From positions 1 through 36,262 of IMG/VR virus record IMGVR_UViG_3300046001_001167: 36,262 nt of DNA. One strand, 5' to 3'. How positions within the stretch are numbered: the stretch's first letter is position 1; every line of letters starts with the position of its first letter. This document shows, piece after piece, positions 2,272 through 36,262 of this stretch. The notes below the pieces were generated by a model, which did no database searches, had not been told where the DNA came from, and saw only the letters and a program-made list of their open reading frames with translations. Origin of the DNA: a virus. A program made the position numbers and the translations under genes.

Positions 2272-3548
2272 TTCAAAGCCTCCAATGCAATGTCCGACAA
2301 TGTGCGCTTGTCGTGTAGCGCGCCCCAAATCTTCTCGTCAACCGTCTTGTGCGTCAGCAAGATGTAGCACCAGACCGCATTCTTCTGGCCGCTGCGGTGC
2401 AGCCGCCCGATGGTCTGCTCGTAGAGTTCTAACGACCACGGCAGCGACAAGAACACGATGTGGTGCCCGCCGTGCTGTAGGTTGAGGCCGTGGCCGGCTG
2501 ACTTCGGATGCACCAGCAGCAACTCGACCTGGCCGGCGTTCCAGCGCTCAATGGCGCTCTCGTCGTCCAGCGTCTGCGCGTGCGGAAACCGGCGCTTGAG
2601 TTCGGCCAGTTCTTCTTTGTACTGGTACACGACAATCGTGTTGGCCCGCTGGTTCTCGGCCAGCAAGTCCTCCAGCCGGTCAAACTTGTGCGGCGATAGC
2701 CAAACGGGGCCATTGTCGGTGTACAGAAACCCGCTGGCCATCTGTTGCAGCTTCTGCGTCACGACAGCCGCGTTGACGGCCACCACATCGTTCAGCACAA
2801 AGTCTTTCTTCATGGTGTTGTAATCAAGCATGTCCATGTCGCAGCGCAACTCGACCGTGTTTAGCGGCGGCAACTTGTCTTTGTAGTCGCCTGGCTCCAG
2901 TAGGTAGGTGGCCGGCTTGATGCGCTCCATGACTTGCGCCAGTGAGCCAGGGCGCGGCGCCCAATCGCCGTACTCTTTGTTGATCAGGATGAAGTACTGC
3001 TGCTGGAACGCGCCCTTTGACCGCCCCAATAGACTTTGATCAACGATCTTGCACTGGCCGAACACGTCCTCCAAGCCGTTGCTGGTGAAGCTGCCGGTCA
3101 AGCCCCAGCGGATGTTGATCTTGTCGATGACCTTGTTCAGCGCCTTGAACCGCGCGCCTGACGGGTTCTTCAGCTTGGTCAACTCGTCGTAGACGATGCC
3201 GTCAATGTGCGCTAGGTTCTGTGTCGCCAGCCACTGGATGTTGTCGTAGTTAGTCACGATGATCTGCGCGCCGCCGCCGAGCGCTGCTGCCCGTTGCGCC
3301 GGTGTGCCCACCGCCACGGCCAGCGTGATGTTAGGCGCCCATTTGGGCTGCTCGACCGGCCACACGTCCGTGCAGACGCGCTTGGGCGCCAACACTAAGA
3401 AGCGCTCGACCACACCCGCCTCTAGCATGTCTTGCATGGCTGTGAGCGTGATGGCCGTCTTGCCCGCGCCCACTGGCGCCAAGATCATGGCGCGGTCGTG
3501 TTCGTACAGGAAGTCAGCCGCCTGTTCTTGGTAGTCACGCAACTTCAT
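2268..3548 (-). CDS. SNF2-type superfamily 2 DEAD-like helicase (426 aa)
   Basis: An ATP-dependent DNA translocase. Visible motifs, in order, are LRDYQ (Q-like) at the N terminus, Walker A PVGAGKT with K30, motif II YDEL (DE-L rather than DEAH), LTGSFTSN (motif III), HGLNLQHGG (motif V) and QTIGRLHRSGQ (motif VI). Both RecA-like lobes are present and the length is that of a minimal SNF2 core without accessory domains. I chose the ATG at 3548 because GGGTGG lies just upstream; an ATG four codons earlier lacks a site. The gene overlaps the VRR-NUC gene by 14 bases, so helicase and nuclease are probably made together and may act jointly on branched or host DNA. Confidence 0.92.
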   Translation of the reverse strand: MKLRDYQEQAADFLYEHDRAMILAPVGAGKTAITLTAMQDMLEAGVVERFLVLAPKRVCTDVWPVEQPKWAPNITLAVAVGTPAQRAAALGGGAQIIVTNYDNIQWLATQNLAHIDGIVYDELTKLKNPSGARFKALNKVIDKINIRWGLTGSFTSNGLEDVFGQCKIVDQSLLGRSKGAFQQQYFILINKEYGDWAPRPGSLAQVMERIKPATYLLEPGDYKDKLPPLNTVELRCDMDMLDYNTMKKDFVLNDVVAVNAAVVTQKLQQMASGFLYTDNGPVWLSPHKFDRLEDLLAENQRANTIVVYQYKEELAELKRRFPHAQTLDDESAIERWNAGQVELLLVHPKSAGHGLNLQHGGHHIVFLSLPWSLELYEQTIGRLHRSGQKNAVWCYILLTHKTVDEKIWGALHDKRTLSDIALEALK

Positions 3549-3810
3549 TAAGCCACCCATTGATTTGTTCTTTGTTCCATAGGCATACGTAGTTCTGTTT
3601 CATGCGTGCCATGTCCGACATGAAAACTTTCTGCAAGGGCGACAGCCTGCCGCCTTCGGTCTTGACCTCAACAAACCATGTCTGGCCGTCTGGTAAGCAA
3701 ACGATGCGGTCAGCCACACCACGGTGCGCGGGGCTGGTGAATTTGTAAGCTACACCGCCAATCGCTTTGACACGATCAACAAGGTAGCGTTCGATTTGTT
3801 TTTCAAGCAT
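3535..3810 (-). CDS. VRR-NUC domain nuclease (91 aa)
   Basis: A single-domain PD-(D/E)xK nuclease. The catalytic pattern is visible as GVADRI (D34), WFVEVK (E48 and K50) and LSPLQ (Q60), the arrangement of the VRR-NUC family. Phage members are stand-alone domains of about 90-100 residues, as here. The family is linked to cutting branched DNA such as replication or recombination intermediates. It is the first gene of the leftward operon and overlaps the SNF2 helicase gene, a pairing known in phages. Metal-dependent endonuclease activity is inferred from the intact motif. Confidence 0.92.
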   Translation of the reverse strand: MLEKQIERYLVDRVKAIGGVAYKFTSPAHRGVADRIVCLPDGQTWFVEVKTEGGRLSPLQKVFMSDMARMKQNYVCLWNKEQINGWLNEVA

Positions 3811-3878
3811 GTAAAAAAGTTTAGCACACTTTTATTTTTTATGCTACACTGAACGCCTCATCAACTAAAGGACAGTAC
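3811..3878. promoter_or_regulatory. Divergent early promoter region
   Basis: This AT-rich 68-bp gap separates the heads of the leftward and rightward early operons. On the plus strand TTAGCA (3821-3826) and TACACT (3845-3850), 18 bases apart, fit a sigma-70-like promoter. AGTTTAGCAC and ATGCTACACT form an imperfect inverted repeat (8 of 10), so the leftward promoter mirrors the rightward one. The plus-strand gene has a weak Shine-Dalgarno site (AAAGGA) 11 bases before its ATG. Confidence 0.55.
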
Positions 3879-4976
3879 ATGCAACACTCAAAGATCGTAG
3901 GCGGTAGCACCGCCAAGCGCGTCATCAACTGCCCCGGCTCAGTGGCCTTGGTAGCCGAGATGCCGCCGCAGCCCAGTAGCAGCTACGCCGAAGAAGGCAC
4001 ACTACTGCACGATGAGATCAGCCGCTTTTTAGGTGATCTCGACTACAGGTTTACTTGCAGCCAAGAACTTATTCAAGACAAACTCTGGCCCGCCTTAGAC
4101 TTGCTTGATGAAATAGACCCCGACAAGACGATGGAATACGCAGTCGAAACCCGTGTCGGCTTTGGTGATCTGCTGCCAGGTGTCTTTGGCTCGACCGACC
4201 TCATGGGCCGCATCGGCAACAAGGCGATCATTCTGGATTGGAAGTTTGGCGCTGGCGTGCCGGTGCCCGCCGAGGAGAACGAGCAGCTTATGTTCTACGC
4301 TGCTGCTGCCATGCGTACGCCCGAGGCGAAGTGGGTGTTTGATGGCGCAACAGAAGTTGAGTTGGTCATCATTCAGCCACCTACCATTAAGCGCTGGACG
4401 ACCACCATTGAGCGCATCAAGCAATTCGAGCAAACCCTTATAAGGGCTGTCAAGATTGCAGAGCAGCCTGACGCGCCCCTGAAGAACGGCGACCACTGCC
4501 GCTGGTGCGCGGCCAAGCCAGTGTGCCCCGTGATGACTGGCGCCGTTGATAGGGCCGTTGCAATTAAGATGGATAAGATCGACGTTGACAAGATCGGCGC
4601 GTATCTACACAATGCAGACCTCTTGGAAGCGTGGATCAAAGACCTTCGCACTTTGGCCGAGGAGATGATGAAGAAGGGCAAGCCCGTTACGGGCTGGAAA
4701 GTAGTGCCTAAGCGTGCGACAAGATCGTGGGTCAAGGAAGAAGACGCGGTGCATTGGCTTGACGGCAAAGGTTTCGAGTCCAAAGACATCTACAGCAAAG
4801 AATTACTCAGCCCTGCTCAAATGGAGAAGTTGCTGAAAAAGAGCAAGTTGACACTGCCGCCCGAACTTGTGGTGGCGGTGTCTTCAGGCACCACAATTGC
4901 ACCGGAGAGCGATCCTCGGCCAGCAGTTGTACTAATCGGGCAGCAGTTAAACGCCGCTCTTTCTAAATTAATGTAA
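3879..4976 (+). CDS. DUF2800, Cas4/RecB-like PD-(D/E)xK nuclease with Fe-S cysteines (365 aa)
   Basis: The N terminus has C18 (INCPGS) and EEGTLLHD (H44). TDLMG (D107), ILDWKFG (D120, K122) and EQLMFY (Q136) give the RecB-type nuclease core. HCRWC with a further CPV supplies C207, C210 and C216, completing the C-x~190-C-x2-C-x5-C arrangement that binds a 4Fe-4S cluster in Cas4 and AddB proteins. This matches the DUF2800 family found beside phage polymerases. It is the first gene of the rightward operon and lies opposite the VRR-NUC gene. The likely role is DNA end processing in phage replication or recombination. Confidence 0.9.
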   Translation: MQHSKIVGGSTAKRVINCPGSVALVAEMPPQPSSSYAEEGTLLHDEISRFLGDLDYRFTCSQELIQDKLWPALDLLDEIDPDKTMEYAVETRVGFGDLLPGVFGSTDLMGRIGNKAIILDWKFGAGVPVPAEENEQLMFYAAAAMRTPEAKWVFDGATEVELVIIQPPTIKRWTTTIERIKQFEQTLIRAVKIAEQPDAPLKNGDHCRWCAAKPVCPVMTGAVDRAVAIKMDKIDVDKIGAYLHNADLLEAWIKDLRTLAEEMMKKGKPVTGWKVVPKRATRSWVKEEDAVHWLDGKGFESKDIYSKELLSPAQMEKLLKKSKLTLPPELVVAVSSGTTIAPESDPRPAVVLIGQQLNAALSKLM

Positions 4977-4986
4977 AGGTAAAATC

Positions 4987-5652
4987 ATGTCACTGACCGT
5001 TTTCAAATCCGCTGGCCTTCCAGCAGTCTCCTCCCTCGCTACTTCCCTGCGTTCTATCGCCACTGATGTTGGCCCAGCCGGCGTTGTCATCCTCAAGATG
5101 GATAAGACCGGGCATTGGGTGTTCGGTGCCGATCAGACCGAAGTCGAAGATGACGCCACATGGGCCGTCAATCCTTTCTCGTTTGTCCACGGCTTCATCG
5201 CTTGGGGTGACGGCGAAGTGCTTGGCGAGAAGATGGCAAGCGTTAGCCAGCCACTGCCTGAACTTGACATTGCACCGCCTAGCGCCAAAAAGGGCTGGGA
5301 GACGCAAGTCGGCATGTCGCTCAAGTGCTTGACCGGCGAAGACAAGGGCATGGAAGCGCGGTTCACCACCACATCCGTGGGCGGCAAGCGCGCCGTGCAA
5401 GCCTTGGCAGTTGCCTTGGCCGAACAAGTCGAGAAGGATCAGACCAAGCCTGTGGCCATCGTCAAGCTGAAGAAAGACCACTACGCGCACAAGTCCTACG
5501 GCAAGATTTACACGCCGGTCTTTAGCGTGGTCGAGTGGGTCGGCATGGACGCCGATGCTGAAGTAGAGCAAACGCCTGAAAGCGCGTTGACTGCTAGCGT
5601 AGTGGCTGATGAAGCCCCTGCGCCAGCCGGACGCCGCCGCCGCGCAGCGTAA
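4987..5652 (+). CDS. Unrecognised replication-block protein (221 aa)
   Basis: A 221-residue soluble protein, ten bases after the DUF2800 gene, with AAAGGT upstream of its ATG. I recognise no catalytic motif. The middle part alternates short beta-like stretches with charged loops (residues about 30-190); the C terminus is a flexible A/E/P-rich tail ending in RRRRAA. In phages with the DUF2800-PolA-SNF2-VRR-NUC set, the gene at this position is often a single-stranded-DNA-binding protein (DUF2815 type). By position this one may do that job, though I cannot match it to the family by sequence. Confidence 0.8.
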   Translation: MSLTVFKSAGLPAVSSLATSLRSIATDVGPAGVVILKMDKTGHWVFGADQTEVEDDATWAVNPFSFVHGFIAWGDGEVLGEKMASVSQPLPELDIAPPSAKKGWETQVGMSLKCLTGEDKGMEARFTTTSVGGKRAVQALAVALAEQVEKDQTKPVAIVKLKKDHYAHKSYGKIYTPVFSVVEWVGMDADAEVEQTPESALTASVVADEAPAPAGRRRRAA

Positions 5653-7639: not shown

Positions 7640-7667
7640 AAAAAGCCCCCGTGGTTAGACGGGGGCT
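7638..7667 (-). terminator. Intrinsic terminator facing the minus strand, inside the rightward operon
   Basis: AGCCCCCGT (7644-7652) and ACGGGGGCT (7659-7667) form a perfect 9-bp stem with a 6-base loop. The A-run at 7638-7644 makes a T-run on the minus strand, so the structure terminates leftward transcription. On the plus strand the stem is followed by ACAACTTC, with no T-run, so rightward transcription of the polymerase-primase operon should continue. Confidence 0.75.
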
Positions 7668-7689
7668 ACAACTTCAAGGAGAGAACAAC

Positions 7690-9972
7690 ATGATCGAGTT
7701 TATAGCATCTTTGGCCCCAGAGGGCGAAACAGCCCTGATAGTCAGGCAAAAACCCAAATTAAAAGACGGAGCGTTGGATTTTCACGCCGATGGGGCTGTC
7801 AAGGCCACCTGGCCGGCGTTCCTGCCCAGCCACCGAATTAAGCAGGGCGAGTCATGGTACGGCAACACCGCCAGCTTTATCGTGGAGCGTTTCAAGGACG
7901 GCCATGTCAGCGCCAGCGCGGCCAACTGCGAGTACATCCTAGTGATGATGCTGGACGACATAGGCACCAAGAGCAAGACGCCGCCCCTGCCGCCGACATG
8001 GATCATGGAGACATCAGCCGGCTCGTTTCAGTGGGTCTACGCCTTCAACGAGCAGCCCACCAAGGCCGAGTTCAGCGCGGCCATCAAGGCCATTGCAGAC
8101 GCCGGCTACACCGACCCTGGCTCCATCAACGCTGTGCGTAACTTCCGTCTGCCTGGTTCGGTCAACCTGAAGCCTGGGCGTGATAACTTTGAAGCCCGTC
8201 TGGTTGAGTTCCACCCAGAGCGCGACTACAGTTTGCCCGAGATATGCGCCGCGTTTGGCGTGACGCCGGCGGCTGCCGACACCCTGACCCTGCGCCCGAT
8301 CCGTATCAGCGACGACGGCGCTGACGATGTGCTGGCGTGGCTGTCAACCCAAGGGCTGCTGCTGTCCAGACCCAACGCCGAGGGCTGGGCTGGGGTCATC
8401 TGCCCCAACAGTGAGCAGCACAGCGATGGCAACCCTGAGGGGCGCTACATGCCGGCCAATCGGGCGTACTGTTGCCTTCACGGCCACTGCGTTGATCTGG
8501 ATTCCCGCACCTTCCTAGAATGGGTCGGCGACAACGGTGGCCCCAAGCACACGCCCGGGCTGCGTGAAGAACTGTTCACCGCTGCGATGGAGGGTGCGCT
8601 TGCCAAGCTGACGCCGAACGATGTCTTTACAGACGAAGCCGCCGAGCGCATTGCCGAGGTCGAGCGCAAAGAACTAGGCCGCGTCGAAAAGGCCGAATGG
8701 TACGACCGCTTCGCCTACATTCAAGACGACGAGTCCTATTTTGACATGCGCGACCGCCGCGAAATTTCCCGCCAGACCTTCAACGCCCTGTTCAGGCACA
8801 TCAGTTGCAAGTCGATCCACACCGGGCGCAAGATCGAAGCGTCTGTCTGCTTCGACGAAAACCGGCAAGAAAAAGGCGCTAAGGCGTTGGTCGGCATTAC
8901 CTACGCGGCCGGCGAGTCGGTCCTAGTTACCCGTGACGGCGACATCTACGGCAACCGCTGGCGTGACGCCCGCCCGCCGGTGGCCGCTGGCGACATCACC
9001 CCGTGGCTGGACCACTGCCGCAAGCTGGTGCCCGACGCCAAAGAGTTAGCGCATATCCTGGACGTGATGGCATTCAAGGTGCAGCACCCCGAGATAAAGA
9101 TCAATCATGCCGTGCTGCATGGCGGCGACCAGGGGTCAGGCAAAGACACCATGTGGGCGCCGTTTATCTGGTCGGTGTGCGGCCCCCACCTAAAGAATCG
9201 GGGCTTGTTAGATAACGACACCATGTCGTCGCAGTTCGGGTATGCCCTTGAGTCTGAAATTTTAATTTTGAACGAGTTAAAAGAGCCGGACGCCAAGGAA
9301 CGCCGCGCCCTAGCCAATAAACTAAAGCCCGTCATCGCAGCGCCGCCCGACATGCTGTCCGTCAATCGTAAGGGTTTACACCCGTACCAGATGGCCAACC
9401 GCATGTTCGTGCTGGCGTTTTCTAACGATCAAGTGCCGATCAGTTTGGACAGTCAGGACCGCCGCTGGATGTGCGTGTGGTCGCACGCGCCCATGATGGC
9501 GCCCGCCGCCGCCGCTAAGATGTGGGCATGGTACAAGGCCGGCGGTTTTGCCGCCATAGGGGCATGGCTGTACGCCCGCGACGTGTCCGCGTTTAACCCC
9601 GGCGCCGCCCCAATGATGACCGAGTTCAAGCTAAACCTGGTTGAGCACGGCCTATCAATGGCCGAGTCTTTTTTGGTCGAGGCCATGCGCCTGAAGGTCG
9701 GCGAGTTCTCCCGGGGCGTTATCGGTAGCCCGTTTCACGCGGTTTGCGACCGGCTGGCAGGGTCAGCGCCCGCCGGCGTTAAAGTGCCCCAGCAGGCCCT
9801 GCTGCACGCGTTTAAAGAGGCCGGTTGGGTTGATTGTGGCCGGCTCAAGTCCCGGGACTACGACACTAAAAAGCACATTTACTGCGCGCCCGACATGGCC
9901 GACAGACCCAAGTCAGAACTGCGCCGGCTGGTCGAGGACGCGCCGCCGTCCGCACTGGTCCGGGTGAAATAA
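7690..9972 (+). CDS. Primase / superfamily 3 helicase fusion (760 aa)
   Basis: A bifunctional replication protein. The N-terminal part has MMLDD (D89, D90), IMETSAGSFQ and NFRLPGSVNLKPG, typical of archaeo-eukaryotic-type (RepB/PrimPol-like) primases. A cysteine/histidine segment (C238, H244, C261, C262, H264, H266, C267) is a likely zinc site. The C-terminal helicase has Walker A GGDQGSGKDT (478-487), Walker B EILILNEL (523-530) and the FSND sensor (577-580), as in D5/DUF5906 helicases. The ATG at 7690 has AAGGAG eight bases upstream, so an earlier in-frame GTG-type start is rejected. It probably opens and primes the origin for the polymerase. Confidence 0.92.
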   Translation: MIEFIASLAPEGETALIVRQKPKLKDGALDFHADGAVKATWPAFLPSHRIKQGESWYGNTASFIVERFKDGHVSASAANCEYILVMMLDDIGTKSKTPPLPPTWIMETSAGSFQWVYAFNEQPTKAEFSAAIKAIADAGYTDPGSINAVRNFRLPGSVNLKPGRDNFEARLVEFHPERDYSLPEICAAFGVTPAAADTLTLRPIRISDDGADDVLAWLSTQGLLLSRPNAEGWAGVICPNSEQHSDGNPEGRYMPANRAYCCLHGHCVDLDSRTFLEWVGDNGGPKHTPGLREELFTAAMEGALAKLTPNDVFTDEAAERIAEVERKELGRVEKAEWYDRFAYIQDDESYFDMRDRREISRQTFNALFRHISCKSIHTGRKIEASVCFDENRQEKGAKALVGITYAAGESVLVTRDGDIYGNRWRDARPPVAAGDITPWLDHCRKLVPDAKELAHILDVMAFKVQHPEIKINHAVLHGGDQGSGKDTMWAPFIWSVCGPHLKNRGLLDNDTMSSQFGYALESEILILNELKEPDAKERRALANKLKPVIAAPPDMLSVNRKGLHPYQMANRMFVLAFSNDQVPISLDSQDRRWMCVWSHAPMMAPAAAAKMWAWYKAGGFAAIGAWLYARDVSAFNPGAAPMMTEFKLNLVEHGLSMAESFLVEAMRLKVGEFSRGVIGSPFHAVCDRLAGSAPAGVKVPQQALLHAFKEAGWVDCGRLKSRDYDTKKHIYCAPDMADRPKSELRRLVEDAPPSALVRVK

Positions 9973-12291: not shown

Positions 12292-12308
12292 CGCTCGTAA
12301 GTGATTGA

Positions 12309-12339
12309 TTTACATAGGGGCTCCAAAACCCTATGTAAA
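12309..12339. repeat. 11-bp perfect inverted repeat
   Basis: TTTACATAGGG (12309-12319) and CCCTATGTAAA (12329-12339) form a perfect 11-bp inverted repeat with a 9-base spacer. There is no T-run on either side, so an operator or a cruciform is likelier than a terminator. It lies just upstream of the putative leftward promoter. Confidence 0.6.
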
Positions 12340-12357
12340 CGATTAGCTTACAAAAAT

Positions 12358-12722
12358 GTGGACCATGTGGGCAAATTTGCGGACTACGCGCGCGCCACAA
12401 TTTGTCCACGTGGCGCGCCACTGAAAAAGGGGTTTGTGGACCATGTGGACAATGAAAAGAAGAAAAGTATTTAAGTCAGATATTGTATACAATACGTGTA
12501 TACAATGTTATAGCCGACGGATTTAAAACCATGGTCCAAAGTGCCCACATTGTCCACACTTCGCCCACGCCAAAAAGCCCCGGCGCATGCATGTGGACCA
12601 TGTGGACAATTTGCTTTTGCTTGGTCCACATTGTCCACGCATGCCCGGCCATGTGGCCACGCATGCCGGCCGTATGGCCATGTGGCCGGCCGACATGTGT
12701 GGACAAGTCCACATTGTCCACA
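12358..12722. promoter_or_regulatory. Cluster of DnaA-box-like and paired GTGGAC elements (putative origin)
   Basis: TTGTCCACA occurs five times: plus strand at 12550-12558 and 12714-12722, minus strand at 12444-12452, 12601-12609 and 12698-12706. TTGTCCACG occurs at 12402-12410 and 12631-12639. The E. coli DnaA box is TTATCCACA; TTGTCCACA is the favoured form in actinobacteria. Six places show the hexamer twice at a 9-bp step (12358, 12436, 12543, 12593, 12624, 12707), three in each orientation. Such phased pairs also resemble plasmid iterons. Binding by DnaA or by the phage's own initiator is inferred. Confidence 0.65.
12483..12504. promoter_or_regulatory. Twin TTGTATACAA-type palindromes, putative operator
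   Basis: TTGTATACAA (12483-12492) is a perfect 10-bp palindrome, and TGTATACA (12497-12504) repeats its core. Their centres are 13 bp apart. Two tandem palindromes of this kind look like a dimeric repressor site within the control region. No repressor gene is recognised in this window. Confidence 0.5.
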
Positions 12723-12726: not shown

Positions 12727-12734
12727 CCGGACCG

Positions 12735-12802
<68 letters not shown>

Positions 12803-12817
12803 CCCGACATACATGTT

Positions 12818-12857
12818 AGTAAGTGCTTACATACCCTAGCTGTAAGTAAGTGCTCAC
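12818..12857. repeat. AGTAAGTGCTYAC direct repeats
   Basis: AGTAAGTGCTTAC (12818-12830) and AGTAAGTGCTCAC (12845-12857) are 13-bp near-identical copies 27 bp apart. Each contains a GTAAG/CTTAC-like half palindrome, and GTTAGT and ACTAAC flank the pair as an inverted repeat. They sit before the late operon and could be operator sites for late gene control. Confidence 0.5.
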
Positions 12858-12864
12858 TAACTTA

Positions 12865-12895
12865 GGGGGTGGGGGTAGGGCCGAGCGCCAGTGGG
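12865..12895 (+). other. Possible G-quadruplex
   Basis: Four G-runs occur on the plus strand: GGGGG (12865-12869), GGGGG (12871-12875), GGG (12878-12880) and GGG (12893-12895), with loops of 1, 2 and 12 bases. The last loop is long, so the structure would be weak. It lies between the direct repeats and the late genes. Confidence 0.35.
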
Positions 12896-12973
12896 CCACG
12901 GTAGCGTAGGGGCTGCAAACAAAATTTTTTTTAATATAGAATCCAAGCACACGTACCAGTGGCTGGAGAATCC

Positions 12974-13420
12974 ATGTTTTACTCGCTTCCATTTGAGGCG
13001 CGCAAAGTCGAAGCGACAGAGGCGCGCTTAAACCGAATCTACGATGCTGCCAAGTTGGGCCTCAAGGGCGACAGCTTGGCTATGGCTGCAGGCATGTTGC
13101 CCACCGAGTACCGCCAACTGTGCCAGCTTGACCCGATTGCCGAGGTCGCCGCGTTAAAGGGCAAGGCCGATGGCGAGATAGAAGCCTCACGCCAACTGCA
13201 CAAAGCCGCCGCCGAGGGAGACGCCAAAGCCAGCCTGGCGATACTGCAGCATGTTCACGGCTGGGTCGCCAAGCAGGCCATCACCATCGACGTAGATCAG
13301 CGCATCTCGATCACCGCCGCCTTGGCCGAAGCCGAGCGGCGCGTCATGGACGTTATCGAGAACAACCCAAGTGAATACCTCACGCCAAAACTAGATGCAG
13401 TCCACCAAGTACAGCGCTGA
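12974..13420 (+). CDS. terS: Terminase small subunit (148 aa)
   Basis: This 148-residue protein lies directly before the large terminase, which it overlaps by 26 bases. The N-terminal region (ATEARLNRIYDAAKLGLKGDSLAMAAGML) reads like a helix-turn-helix that would recognise the pac site. The middle (GEIEASRQLHKAAAEGDAKASLAIL) is helical and suits oligomerisation. I chose the ATG at 12974 because GGAG lies just upstream; an in-frame GTG at 12959 is less likely. As the first late gene it would guide the large subunit to phage DNA for packaging. Confidence 0.85.
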   Translation: MFYSLPFEARKVEATEARLNRIYDAAKLGLKGDSLAMAAGMLPTEYRQLCQLDPIAEVAALKGKADGEIEASRQLHKAAAEGDAKASLAILQHVHGWVAKQAITIDVDQRISITAALAEAERRVMDVIENNPSEYLTPKLDAVHQVQR

Positions 13421-24955: not shown

Positions 24956-25672
24956 ATGGCCGTTTACACTGCTGGCGATCAAATCAATCGGGCACTTCGT
25001 TTGATCGGCGTGTTGGCCGAAGGTGAAACAACCTCTGCATCAGTGTCGCAAGACAGCCTGATGGCGATGAATCAGATGATCGACTCATGGAATACTGAGC
25101 GCCTGTCTGTATTTTGCACACAAGATCAAACCTTTACTTGGCCTGCTGGCGAGTACATCCGCACACTTGGCCCTTCGGGTAACTTTATTGGCCTGCGCCC
25201 CGTGTTGCTGGACGAGGCAACGTACTTTCGTGACCCTGGCACAAACGTGTCGTTTGGCATCAAGTTCATCAACCAGCAACAGTACAACGGCATCGCCGTT
25301 AAAACCGTAACGTCAACGTATCCGCAAGTCATTTTTGTAAACATGACTTACCCAGACGTTACGATGTCTATCTACCCACGCCCCACACGCGACTTGGAAT
25401 GGCACTTTGTCTCGGTGCAAGAACTGAGCAACCCCGCCACCTTGGCGACTGACTTGTTCTTCCCACCAGGCTATTTGCGGGCGTTCACCTACAACTTGGC
25501 GATGGAGATTGCGCCTGAGTTTGGCGTTGAGCCAAGCCCTCAAGTGCAGCGCATTGCCATGACTAGCAAGCGCAACTTGAAGCGCATCAACAATCCAGAT
25601 GACGTGATGTCTATGCCTTACGCCATTGTCGCCACTCGTCAACGCTTTAACATTTACGCAGGGAATTACTAA
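24956..25672 (+). CDS. P22 gp4-like head-closure protein (238 aa)
   Basis: A 238-residue protein (AGDQINRALRLIGVLAEGE near the N terminus, TRDLEWHFVSVQEL in the middle, SKRNLKRIN at the C terminus). The two-helix start plus beta-core resembles the P22 gp4 family, which binds the portal ring after DNA packaging and starts the tail. The gene order gp4-like, then gp10-like after one intervening gene, supports the call. AAGGAG precedes the ATG. Confidence 0.85.
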   Translation: MAVYTAGDQINRALRLIGVLAEGETTSASVSQDSLMAMNQMIDSWNTERLSVFCTQDQTFTWPAGEYIRTLGPSGNFIGLRPVLLDEATYFRDPGTNVSFGIKFINQQQYNGIAVKTVTSTYPQVIFVNMTYPDVTMSIYPRPTRDLEWHFVSVQELSNPATLATDLFFPPGYLRAFTYNLAMEIAPEFGVEPSPQVQRIAMTSKRNLKRINNPDDVMSMPYAIVATRQRFNIYAGNY

Positions 25673-34779: not shown

Positions 34780-35390
34780 TGGCAACTGACGAACGCCTCA
34801 ACCTAGTTGACAAAGTGCTGGCGTATGTCAGCAGCCCGTTCCGGCTGTTTGCAATGGTGCTGATGGCTGTCCTGACCTTTGCTGGCTACTTTGTATATAC
34901 AAATCAAGAGCTGCTAATCGGGGCGTACAAAGAATCCAAAAAGATACCAAGCATTGCAGAGGACAGGGTAGAGGACGCTGCTGCCCATCTGTTCAAGCAG
35001 TCTGGCGCCATCATTGTGGCGGTGTTCAAGGTGAACTCAATGTTTGGAACGCGCATCTTGCACAGGGCGTACACCCGAGAGGGGCGGGACAAGACCAACG
35101 ATGGGCTGGACGTTGGCCTGTTCACCCAGAACGCATCGAACAACGCTGACGTAGTGCGCTTGATGGCAAACGAGATTCCCTGCGGCGAATACACCAGCGC
35201 ACAGAGTGAAATGGGCATCTGGTACATTGAAAAGGGTGTGGGCTATACGTGCCGAATTTCAGTGCCGCCAGAGCCTGGACGCTTTGTAGGCCAGATCACA
35301 GTAGGCTGGGCATCACCGCCAGATAATTTAGAGAAGACCCGCGCAATGCTTCAAATCGCAGCAACCATGTTATCAAGGAGTAAACAATGA
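34779..35390 (+). CDS. Membrane protein with extracytoplasmic domain (203 aa)
   Basis: A single membrane helix (residues about 23-41, FAMVLMAVLTFAGYFVY) is followed by a soluble domain of about 160 residues, likely on the periplasmic side because the N terminus is basic and cytoplasmic. The domain has three cysteines and a beta-rich C-terminal half. GGAGG lies nine bases before the ATG, which overlaps the previous stop. It precedes the holin gene. Lysis timing or superinfection sensing is possible but not shown. Confidence 0.75.
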   Translation: MATDERLNLVDKVLAYVSSPFRLFAMVLMAVLTFAGYFVYTNQELLIGAYKESKKIPSIAEDRVEDAAAHLFKQSGAIIVAVFKVNSMFGTRILHRAYTREGRDKTNDGLDVGLFTQNASNNADVVRLMANEIPCGEYTSAQSEMGIWYIEKGVGYTCRISVPPEPGRFVGQITVGWASPPDNLEKTRAMLQIAATMLSRSKQ

Positions 35391-35797: not shown

Positions 35798-36204
35798 CAC
35801 CACACTTTACTCTCGCGGAACTGACCGCCACCAGCCACCGCCAGTTTGACAATACGCCAAACGACGCTGAACTAGCCAACTTGCAAAAGCTGGCTGAGTT
35901 TTTGGAGCAAGTCAAGACGCTGCTGGACGGCAAGCCAATTATGATTAACAGTGCCTTCAGGTCTAAGCAAGTCAACGACAGCGTAGGCAGCAAGGACACC
36001 AGCCAGCACCGTCTGGGCTACGCGGCTGACTTCAAGGTGCCGGGCATGACGCCAGACCAAGTTGTGCGGGCCATCATTGACTCTGACTTGCAGTTTGACC
36101 AGATCATCCGTGAGTTTGACGCTTGGACGCACATCAGCATCAGCCCCTACCCTCGCCGTCAGGCGCTGATCATTGACCGCGCTGGGACTCGACCTTTCGC
36201 ATAA
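35794..36204 (+). CDS. Endolysin, M15 peptidase family (136 aa)
   Basis: A D,D-carboxypeptidase-like zinc enzyme that cuts peptidoglycan cross-links. SAFRS, HRLGYAADFKV and WTHIS hold the metal ligands H72, D79 and H113, and the catalytic core matches peptidase M15_3. It has no signal peptide, so it depends on the holin just upstream. Its ATG overlaps the holin stop as ATGA. The 3' end overlaps a convergent minus-strand gene by 35 bases when the circular map is closed. This is the last gene of the late operon. Confidence 0.93.
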   Translation: MTPHFTLAELTATSHRQFDNTPNDAELANLQKLAEFLEQVKTLLDGKPIMINSAFRSKQVNDSVGSKDTSQHRLGYAADFKVPGMTPDQVVRAIIDSDLQFDQIIREFDAWTHISISPYPRRQALIIDRAGTRPFA

Positions 36205-36262
36205 GCGCTCGGTACGCCTCAATGGCGTCCTTGAGGTCGCACTGAAGCTGCTGAATCCGGTC
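36118..36262. repeat. Terminal direct repeat, right copy
   Basis: Exact copy of the first 145 bases of the window. Removing one copy gives a circular map of 36,117 bp in which the endolysin gene runs directly into the convergent minus-strand early operon. Confidence 0.95.
36170..36262 (-). CDS. Small coiled-coil protein, C-terminal fragment in the right terminal copy
   Basis: The minus-strand frame that is complete at 53-226 reappears here as its last 30 codons and stop codon, because the window repeats its first 145 bases. It is cut by the window end only. Confidence 0.85.
   Translation of the reverse strand, partial: DRIQQLQCDLKDAIEAYRALMRKVESQRGQ

Follow-up and report, generated by a model that had tools for sequence, protein, structure and literature searches.

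The DNA analysed here (the window, 36,262 bases at full length) is a complete circular phage map in which bases 1-145 are identical to 36118-36262, and its source is an uncultured freshwater phage. The left side carries replication genes recognized by Pfam/PHROG matches (helicase, nuclease, polymerase A and primase-helicase), and the right side carries terminase and podovirus-like structural genes, assigned by synteny with phage DSL-LC05. Three matches were found in MAG contigs binned as an actinobacterium, as Betaproteobacteria and as Rhodoferax, and binning is therefore an unreliable guide to the host. The phage collection searched contains no isolate of this phage group, and the only match in it to the wing domain described below is a metagenome genome.

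The 9-bp unit TGTGGAC(A/C)A is repeated about 12 times at 12357-12722, with a leftward operon on one side and the terminase operon, which runs rightward, on the other; the array ends about 240 bp before terS. A previous examination of the letters of this DNA (the sequence-only reading) described the region as gene-free, and it is indeed intergenic, except for overlapping mechanical ORFs. The five copies of TTGTCCACA and two of TTGTCCACG reported there are all present, the former at 12444 (-), 12550 (+), 12601 (-), 12698 (-) and 12714 (+), the latter at 12402 and 12631. Four copies of TGGTCCACA (12357, 12435, 12592 and 12622) and one of TTGCCCACA (12366) had been missed; together with other sites, these form exact 9-bp head-to-tail pairs. 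Read on the opposite strand, TTGTCCACA is TGTGGACAA, and TGTGGACAA, TGTGGACCA, TGTGGGCAA and CGTGGACAA together make up 12 sites, mostly in 9-bp head-to-tail pairs (Table 1). The confinement of the unit is strict: a search of all 36,262 bases found no TTGTCCACA outside the array, and the five copies within it compare with 0.28 expected in the window and with a maximum of 2 in 100 shuffles.

The AT-rich tract that had been pointed out to the right of the array is present at 12919-12941. A stretch in a more suitable position, also AT-rich, lies inside the array, between inward-pointing iterons, and is a candidate unwinding element; the pairs closest to this spacer are the ones that face inward. 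The window array has the make-up expected of an iteron origin, namely direct repeats confined to one site beside an AT-rich region. The cumulative GC-skew minimum agrees with the check that the sequence-only reading had proposed, as it is located 114 bp from the array, and the maximum is at 35310; this minimum falls at a change of gene direction, by which GC skew is confounded. The proposal that the region is an origin of replication is well supported by the confined iterons, the conserved layout with an AT-rich spacer, the skew minimum and the co-variation with a replication protein, and very probably it is from these repeats that the phage replicates.

Table 1. Coordinates of the array, its surroundings and the proposed initiator in the window
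Feature	Coordinates	Strand	Basis
Primase-helicase, 773 aa as called, RepB_primase-like N part, DUF5906/SF3-type helicase; proposed initiator	7651..9972	+	Pfam/PHROG
C-terminal winged-helix domain (predicted), residues 670-762	9658..9936	+	AlphaFold2
Wing segment CGRLKSRDYDTKKHI, residues 729-743, proposed to set iteron specificity	9835..9879	+	co-variation
Iteron pair 1, TGTGGACCA then TGTGGGCAA, 9-bp head-to-tail	12357..12374	+	
Single iteron CGTGGACAA (TTGTCCACG on + strand)	12402..12410	-	
Iteron pair 2, TGTGGACCA then TGTGGACAA	12435..12452	+	
AT-rich spacer within array, 67-70% AT, between inward-pointing iterons; candidate unwinding element	about 12453..12520	.	
Iteron TGTGGACAA (TTGTCCACA on +), degenerate partner 12541-12549	12550..12558	-	
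Iteron pair, TGTGGACCA then TGTGGACAA	12592..12609	+	
Iteron pair, TGGTCCACA then TTGTCCACG as read on + strand	12622..12639	-	
Iteron TGTGGACAA	12698..12706	+	
Iteron TGTGGACAA (TTGTCCACA on +), degenerate partner 12705-12713	12714..12722	-	
Cumulative GC-skew minimum (raw 12836, detrended 12864)	12836..12864	.	
Terminase small subunit gene (terS)	12959..13420	+	right neighbour of array, by position

Repeat arrays in related phages

Two scans for relatives provided 131 usable loci with the region upstream of terminase, and clusters were detected in these by an unbiased count of repeated 9-mers, scored against shuffles. A repeat cluster is found in nearly all relatives, in more than 100 of them at the equivalent position, with scores mostly of 5-15 as compared to 2-4.5 for shuffled sequence. 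The units are likewise concentrated in one cluster in 14 whole related records. The unit itself differs among relatives. The main classes, by number of loci, are TTTGGGTCA (47), TGTGGACAA (46), TGTGGGTCA (7), TGTGAGTCA (4) and TGTGGGCAA (3); TGTTAGTCA and TGTAAGCAA are also found, and the units seen in a single case include TGTAAGTCA, TGTAGGCAA, TGTGGGCTA, TGTTGGCTA, TATGGACAA and ATTGGGTCA. All of the units share the frame TNTNRRNNA, with an occasional A at the first position.

Whatever the unit, the relatives have inward-facing pairs around an AT-rich spacer, with recurrent intervals of about 78, 42 and 21 bp. Neighbouring sites at exactly 9 bp have the same orientation in 443 of 444 cases, and the AT-richest 40 bp is located between iterons in 102 of 120 relatives. 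Relatives whose TerL and TerS are 98% and 99% identical to those of the window have a different unit, in TTTGGGTCA arrays. The distant MW202483, which has another wing, carries 9-bp tandems of TTGGTAGTG around an AT-rich spacer, again upstream of terminase. No clear iteron array of the frame TNTNRRNNA was found in three relatives that are close by terminase (L021, L023 and L037), and these may use another replication module.

One relative (L119) has what looks like a half-converted origin, from -1166 to -614 relative to terL. The left part of this array consists of TTTGGGTCA, matching the wing of the same phage, and the right part of TGTGGACCA/TGTGGACAA, with the layout unchanged, as if the origin had been caught mid-switch or had recombined internally.

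Co-variation of the unit with the primase-helicase wing

The two main unit classes were compared, column by column, with seven conserved phage proteins by mutual information (MI). The primase-helicase is the sole protein of the seven that tracks the unit, and it does so via residues 729-743 alone. Columns 729, 732, 733, 735, 738 and 743 split the unit classes without exception (MI 1.00 of 1.00, n=84). Outside the C-terminal stretch, no primase-helicase column exceeds an MI of 0.67, and the best column is at or below 0.42 in the exonuclease, the protein encoded at 4987-5652, the polymerase, TerS, TerL and portal. The MI is near 0 in the flanking scaffold (residues 712-728 and 744-749), and linkage of gene and array is therefore an insufficient account of the association. 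The association could be inflated if the primase-helicase gene and the array were transferred together as one module; such a joint transfer would not restrict the signal to some 15 residues, nor would it produce a pairing of residues with bases.

The same association is seen on phylogenetic trees. On the TerL tree the unit class switches 15 times, and independent pairs are concordant in 9 of 9 cases (p=0.004); a tree of primase-helicase residues 1-690 has 6 switches with 5 of 5 pairs concordant, a number of pairs that cannot reach significance by itself. Primase-helicases with 97% identity over residues 1-690 are paired with different units. What the sequences demonstrate is an array that is conserved, keeps its layout and co-varies with the wing. 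Judged by co-variation alone, the element encodes a protein whose specificity appears to match the repeats. Because the unit follows its wing, the primase-helicase is the likely initiator for the array, and its binding specificity for the unit is strongly supported. The earlier view that the phage has no recognisable initiator is not supported.

The helicase part of the protein (residues 458-661) is homologous to the C-terminal ring of NrS-1 polymerase (6k9c, 6k9e, 6lrb; E 3e-10), the DUF5906 match exceeds the cut-off, and the key positions of the Walker A motif GGDQGSGKDT are invariant. The protein therefore has the homologous domain with Walker A that marks an SF3/D5 helicase of the NrS-1 polymerase type. 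A model of the full-length protein is poor (pLDDT 56) and usable for the C-terminal part alone; an AlphaFold2 model of residues 646-773 has a mean pLDDT of 83.6, with core blocks at 90-96. The predicted topology of this part is helix-strand-helix-helix-strand-loop-strand-helix, and residues 733-740, which include those of the putative code, would lie in the hairpin loop of the wing. Its PDB neighbours are mostly winged-helix proteins (including AhrC, RTP and RFX5), at modest Z scores of 4-6. Foldseek and VIA searches returned neighbours of a generic winged-helix kind, with Z scores of 6.3 at most and no confident Foldseek PDB match for the wing domain, and a PDB sequence search with this domain as query gave chance matches only.

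A pairing table of 46 distinct unit/wing combinations, largely the same data that suggested the pairs, shows which residues go with which bases. All 46 combinations agree in pairing Arg or Lys at residue 735 with G at position 2 of the unit (36 with and 10 without, p=2.5e-10), and Arg-G pairing is chemically ordinary. Asp or Glu at 738 is found with A at unit position 6 in 18 of 20 combinations, as against 0 of 26 otherwise, and the two exceptions have G6. Lys733 accompanies G at position 4 (23 of 23), and Arg740 accompanies A at position 5 (4 of 4). The held-out test, which covers the KxR..D rule only, was based on two further scans for more distant primase-helicases plus three genome contigs, which together gave 81 distinct new C-termini. 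The combination Lys733/Arg735/Asp738 predicts a GTGGAC-rich array, and such an array was found in 14 of 15 cases with the rule versus 7 of 66 without it (p=9e-10), the 7 apparent false positives being mostly GC-rich relatives. The held-out set includes the Rhodoferax-binned contig, which is 67% identical and has a KSR..D wing with 12 TTGTCCACA-type sites surrounding an AT-rich spacer. It seems likely, if well short of certain, that the whole group has a diversified modular code for origin recognition, in which a wing loop of about 15 residues would read the 9-bp iteron largely residue by base. The array would then be rewritten when the wing changes, yielding many mutually orthogonal initiator/origin pairs.

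Possible readers of the sites and a proposed mechanism

The sequence-only reading had suggested that the phage recruits host DnaA, which would bind the TTGTCCACA cluster as DnaA boxes and open the origin for the phage. A single base separates TTGTCCACA from the DnaA box of E. coli, and TTATNCACA boxes are also found in 15 of the 46 TTGTCCACA-class relatives. However, 46 of the 47 TTTGGGTCA-class clusters are without a TTATNCACA box, and TTWTNCACA does not occur near the window array, the genome total being 1 (at 25112) versus 3.5 expected. DnaA boxes (TTWTNCACA or close) are not conserved across relatives, which swap all of their sites for non-DnaA-box sequences (TGACCCAAA, TGACTAACA and others), with units switching to TTTGGGTCA, TGTTAGTCA and others, even when the terminase proteins are nearly identical, and the unit follows residues of a phage protein. 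Since the unit differs among relatives, host DnaA is excluded as a general reader, and its action on the window array is very unlikely; the case shows that what look like clustered DnaA boxes in the genome of a phage may be misleading. Packaging sites are often near terS, and this array stops about 240 bp before that gene, an arrangement that would suit a packaging signal (pac/cos) recognised by TerS, the terminase small subunit, whose gene lies immediately to the right. The sequence of such a signal should track TerS, but TerS has no predictive value for the unit (best column MI 0.24, n=93), and the class switches 21 times on the TerS tree. Different units are found beside TerS proteins that are 99% identical, TerS is therefore not the reader, and a packaging signal is most improbable.

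The position between divergently transcribed genes would also be appropriate for operators, through which a phage transcription regulator would control the two divergent operons, and iteron binding could additionally regulate transcription. Nevertheless, no gene in the stretch from the primase-helicase to terS is conserved across relatives, which leaves no conserved regulator available, and the protein that co-varies with the unit is a replication enzyme. A set of about 12 sites with an internal AT-rich spacer is also an unusual layout for operators, and a purely regulatory role is scarcely credible. Somewhat less remote, though still improbable, is the idea that the units are single-strand template sites at which the primase domain starts primers, as NrS-1 polymerase does at TTTGGTTA, and not double-strand binding sites. 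Of the proteins with a solved structure, NrS-1 polymerase is most closely related to the helicase part, and TTTGGTTA, which is required for NrS-1 priming (PMC8718748), resembles the TTTGGGTCA unit. Against this, recognition by NrS-1 polymerase is credited to an N-terminal helix bundle, whereas the signal here is in the C-terminal wing, and the units point in either direction and pair at a constant 9 bp, as expected of double-strand iterons.

The reading favoured here, with a probability of roughly 0.86, is that the array is an iteron origin to which the primase-helicase of the phage binds and which this protein probably melts, its specificity residing in a swappable wing. The inferred course of events, from binding to priming and origin activity, is as follows. 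The C-terminal winged helix would bind iteron pairs as double-stranded DNA, and the primase-helicase would assemble on the array at the inward-facing pairs. The assembled protein would melt the AT-rich spacer, load its own SF3-type helicase ring at the opened spacer and prime synthesis for the phage DNA polymerase, so that a fork starts. A change in the wing would be accompanied by a change in the array's copies.

In phage P4, the alpha protein combines in one polypeptide a primase, a helicase and, at the C-terminus, a winged-helix domain for origin binding; it binds repeats and then unwinds and primes (PMC4234260, citing Yeo 2002). In the window protein, primase and helicase are fused as well, and the model predicts, with high local confidence, a winged helix near the C-terminus. 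The type 1 repeats of P4 crr likewise include a 9-bp-spaced direct pair plus inverted copies beside an A/T tract. The two systems differ in that P4 has a Toprim primase and the primase here is of a different type, and in that one array here serves the whole phage chromosome, with unit and wing varying together across the group. Sequence homology to P4 alpha was not detected by hhalign (probability 0.7% for the whole protein and 0.1% for the C-terminal part). The P4 origin-binding domain is absent from the listed PDB neighbours of the wing domain, an absence that is no evidence against the likeness. The simplest model, by analogy, is that the window primase-helicase would work like P4 alpha, with no membership in the same family implied.

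Other known systems share parts of this arrangement. SaPI Rep recognises origin iterons with its C-terminal domain (PMC7581432), and both SaPI Rep and SCCmec Cch2 are D5/SF3-type helicases recognising short origin iterons. Their primase is usually separate and the elements are chromosomal islands, whereas here the genome is that of a phage, the primase is fused and the specificity switch is traced to the wing. NrS-1 polymerase, a PrimPol-helicase, has a homologous helicase part and is also a phage replication protein with sequence-specific initiation. Its site, however, is an 8-nt single-strand priming site present in just two copies (PMC7102993); an iteron array is not described there, and the wing domain found here is unmatched. 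Bacterial oriC also has clustered 9-bp boxes (for DnaA) beside an AT-rich stretch, but here the unit varies freely among close relatives, following a phage protein. A literature search found no paper on this array or recognition code.

Both iteron origins and the initiators that act on them have been described before, but a joint change in the specificity of an initiator and a dozen sites is poorly understood. These natural sequences supply dozens of matched pairs on nearly constant scaffolds, so that a code relating residues to bases in origin recognition can be tested directly, and the matched wing/unit pairs are candidate orthogonal replicons. The question is also raised of what drives the switching, for example whether co-infecting phages might interfere with one another, or satellites might hijack the initiator.

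Other repeats near the array

A perfect (GCCT)17 microsatellite is located between the iterons and terS, at 12734-12801. There are 17 units in relatives L082/L083, 14 in L117 and none in the other relatives; the run was dropped as an origin component because it is present only in near-identical relatives. A second type of repeat, GTTAGTAAGTGCTTAC, lies at 12814-12865, with an imperfect copy 27 bp further, and CTAACTTA/AAGTTAGT motifs have several occurrences each in many relatives. Both sets of repeats are possibly operators of a phage regulator. To the left of the array, at 12297-12351, is a large inverted repeat with 23-nt arms that are 78% complementary. It includes TATGTAAAC, which occurs about 11 times upstream of terminase in MW202483 (L162). 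The annotated primase-polymerase of phage DSL-LC05 (L001) has no detectable similarity to the window primase-helicase; at the equivalent place in that phage, about 3300-4300, lies a cluster of GTGGGTCA/CCCACTGGG repeats.
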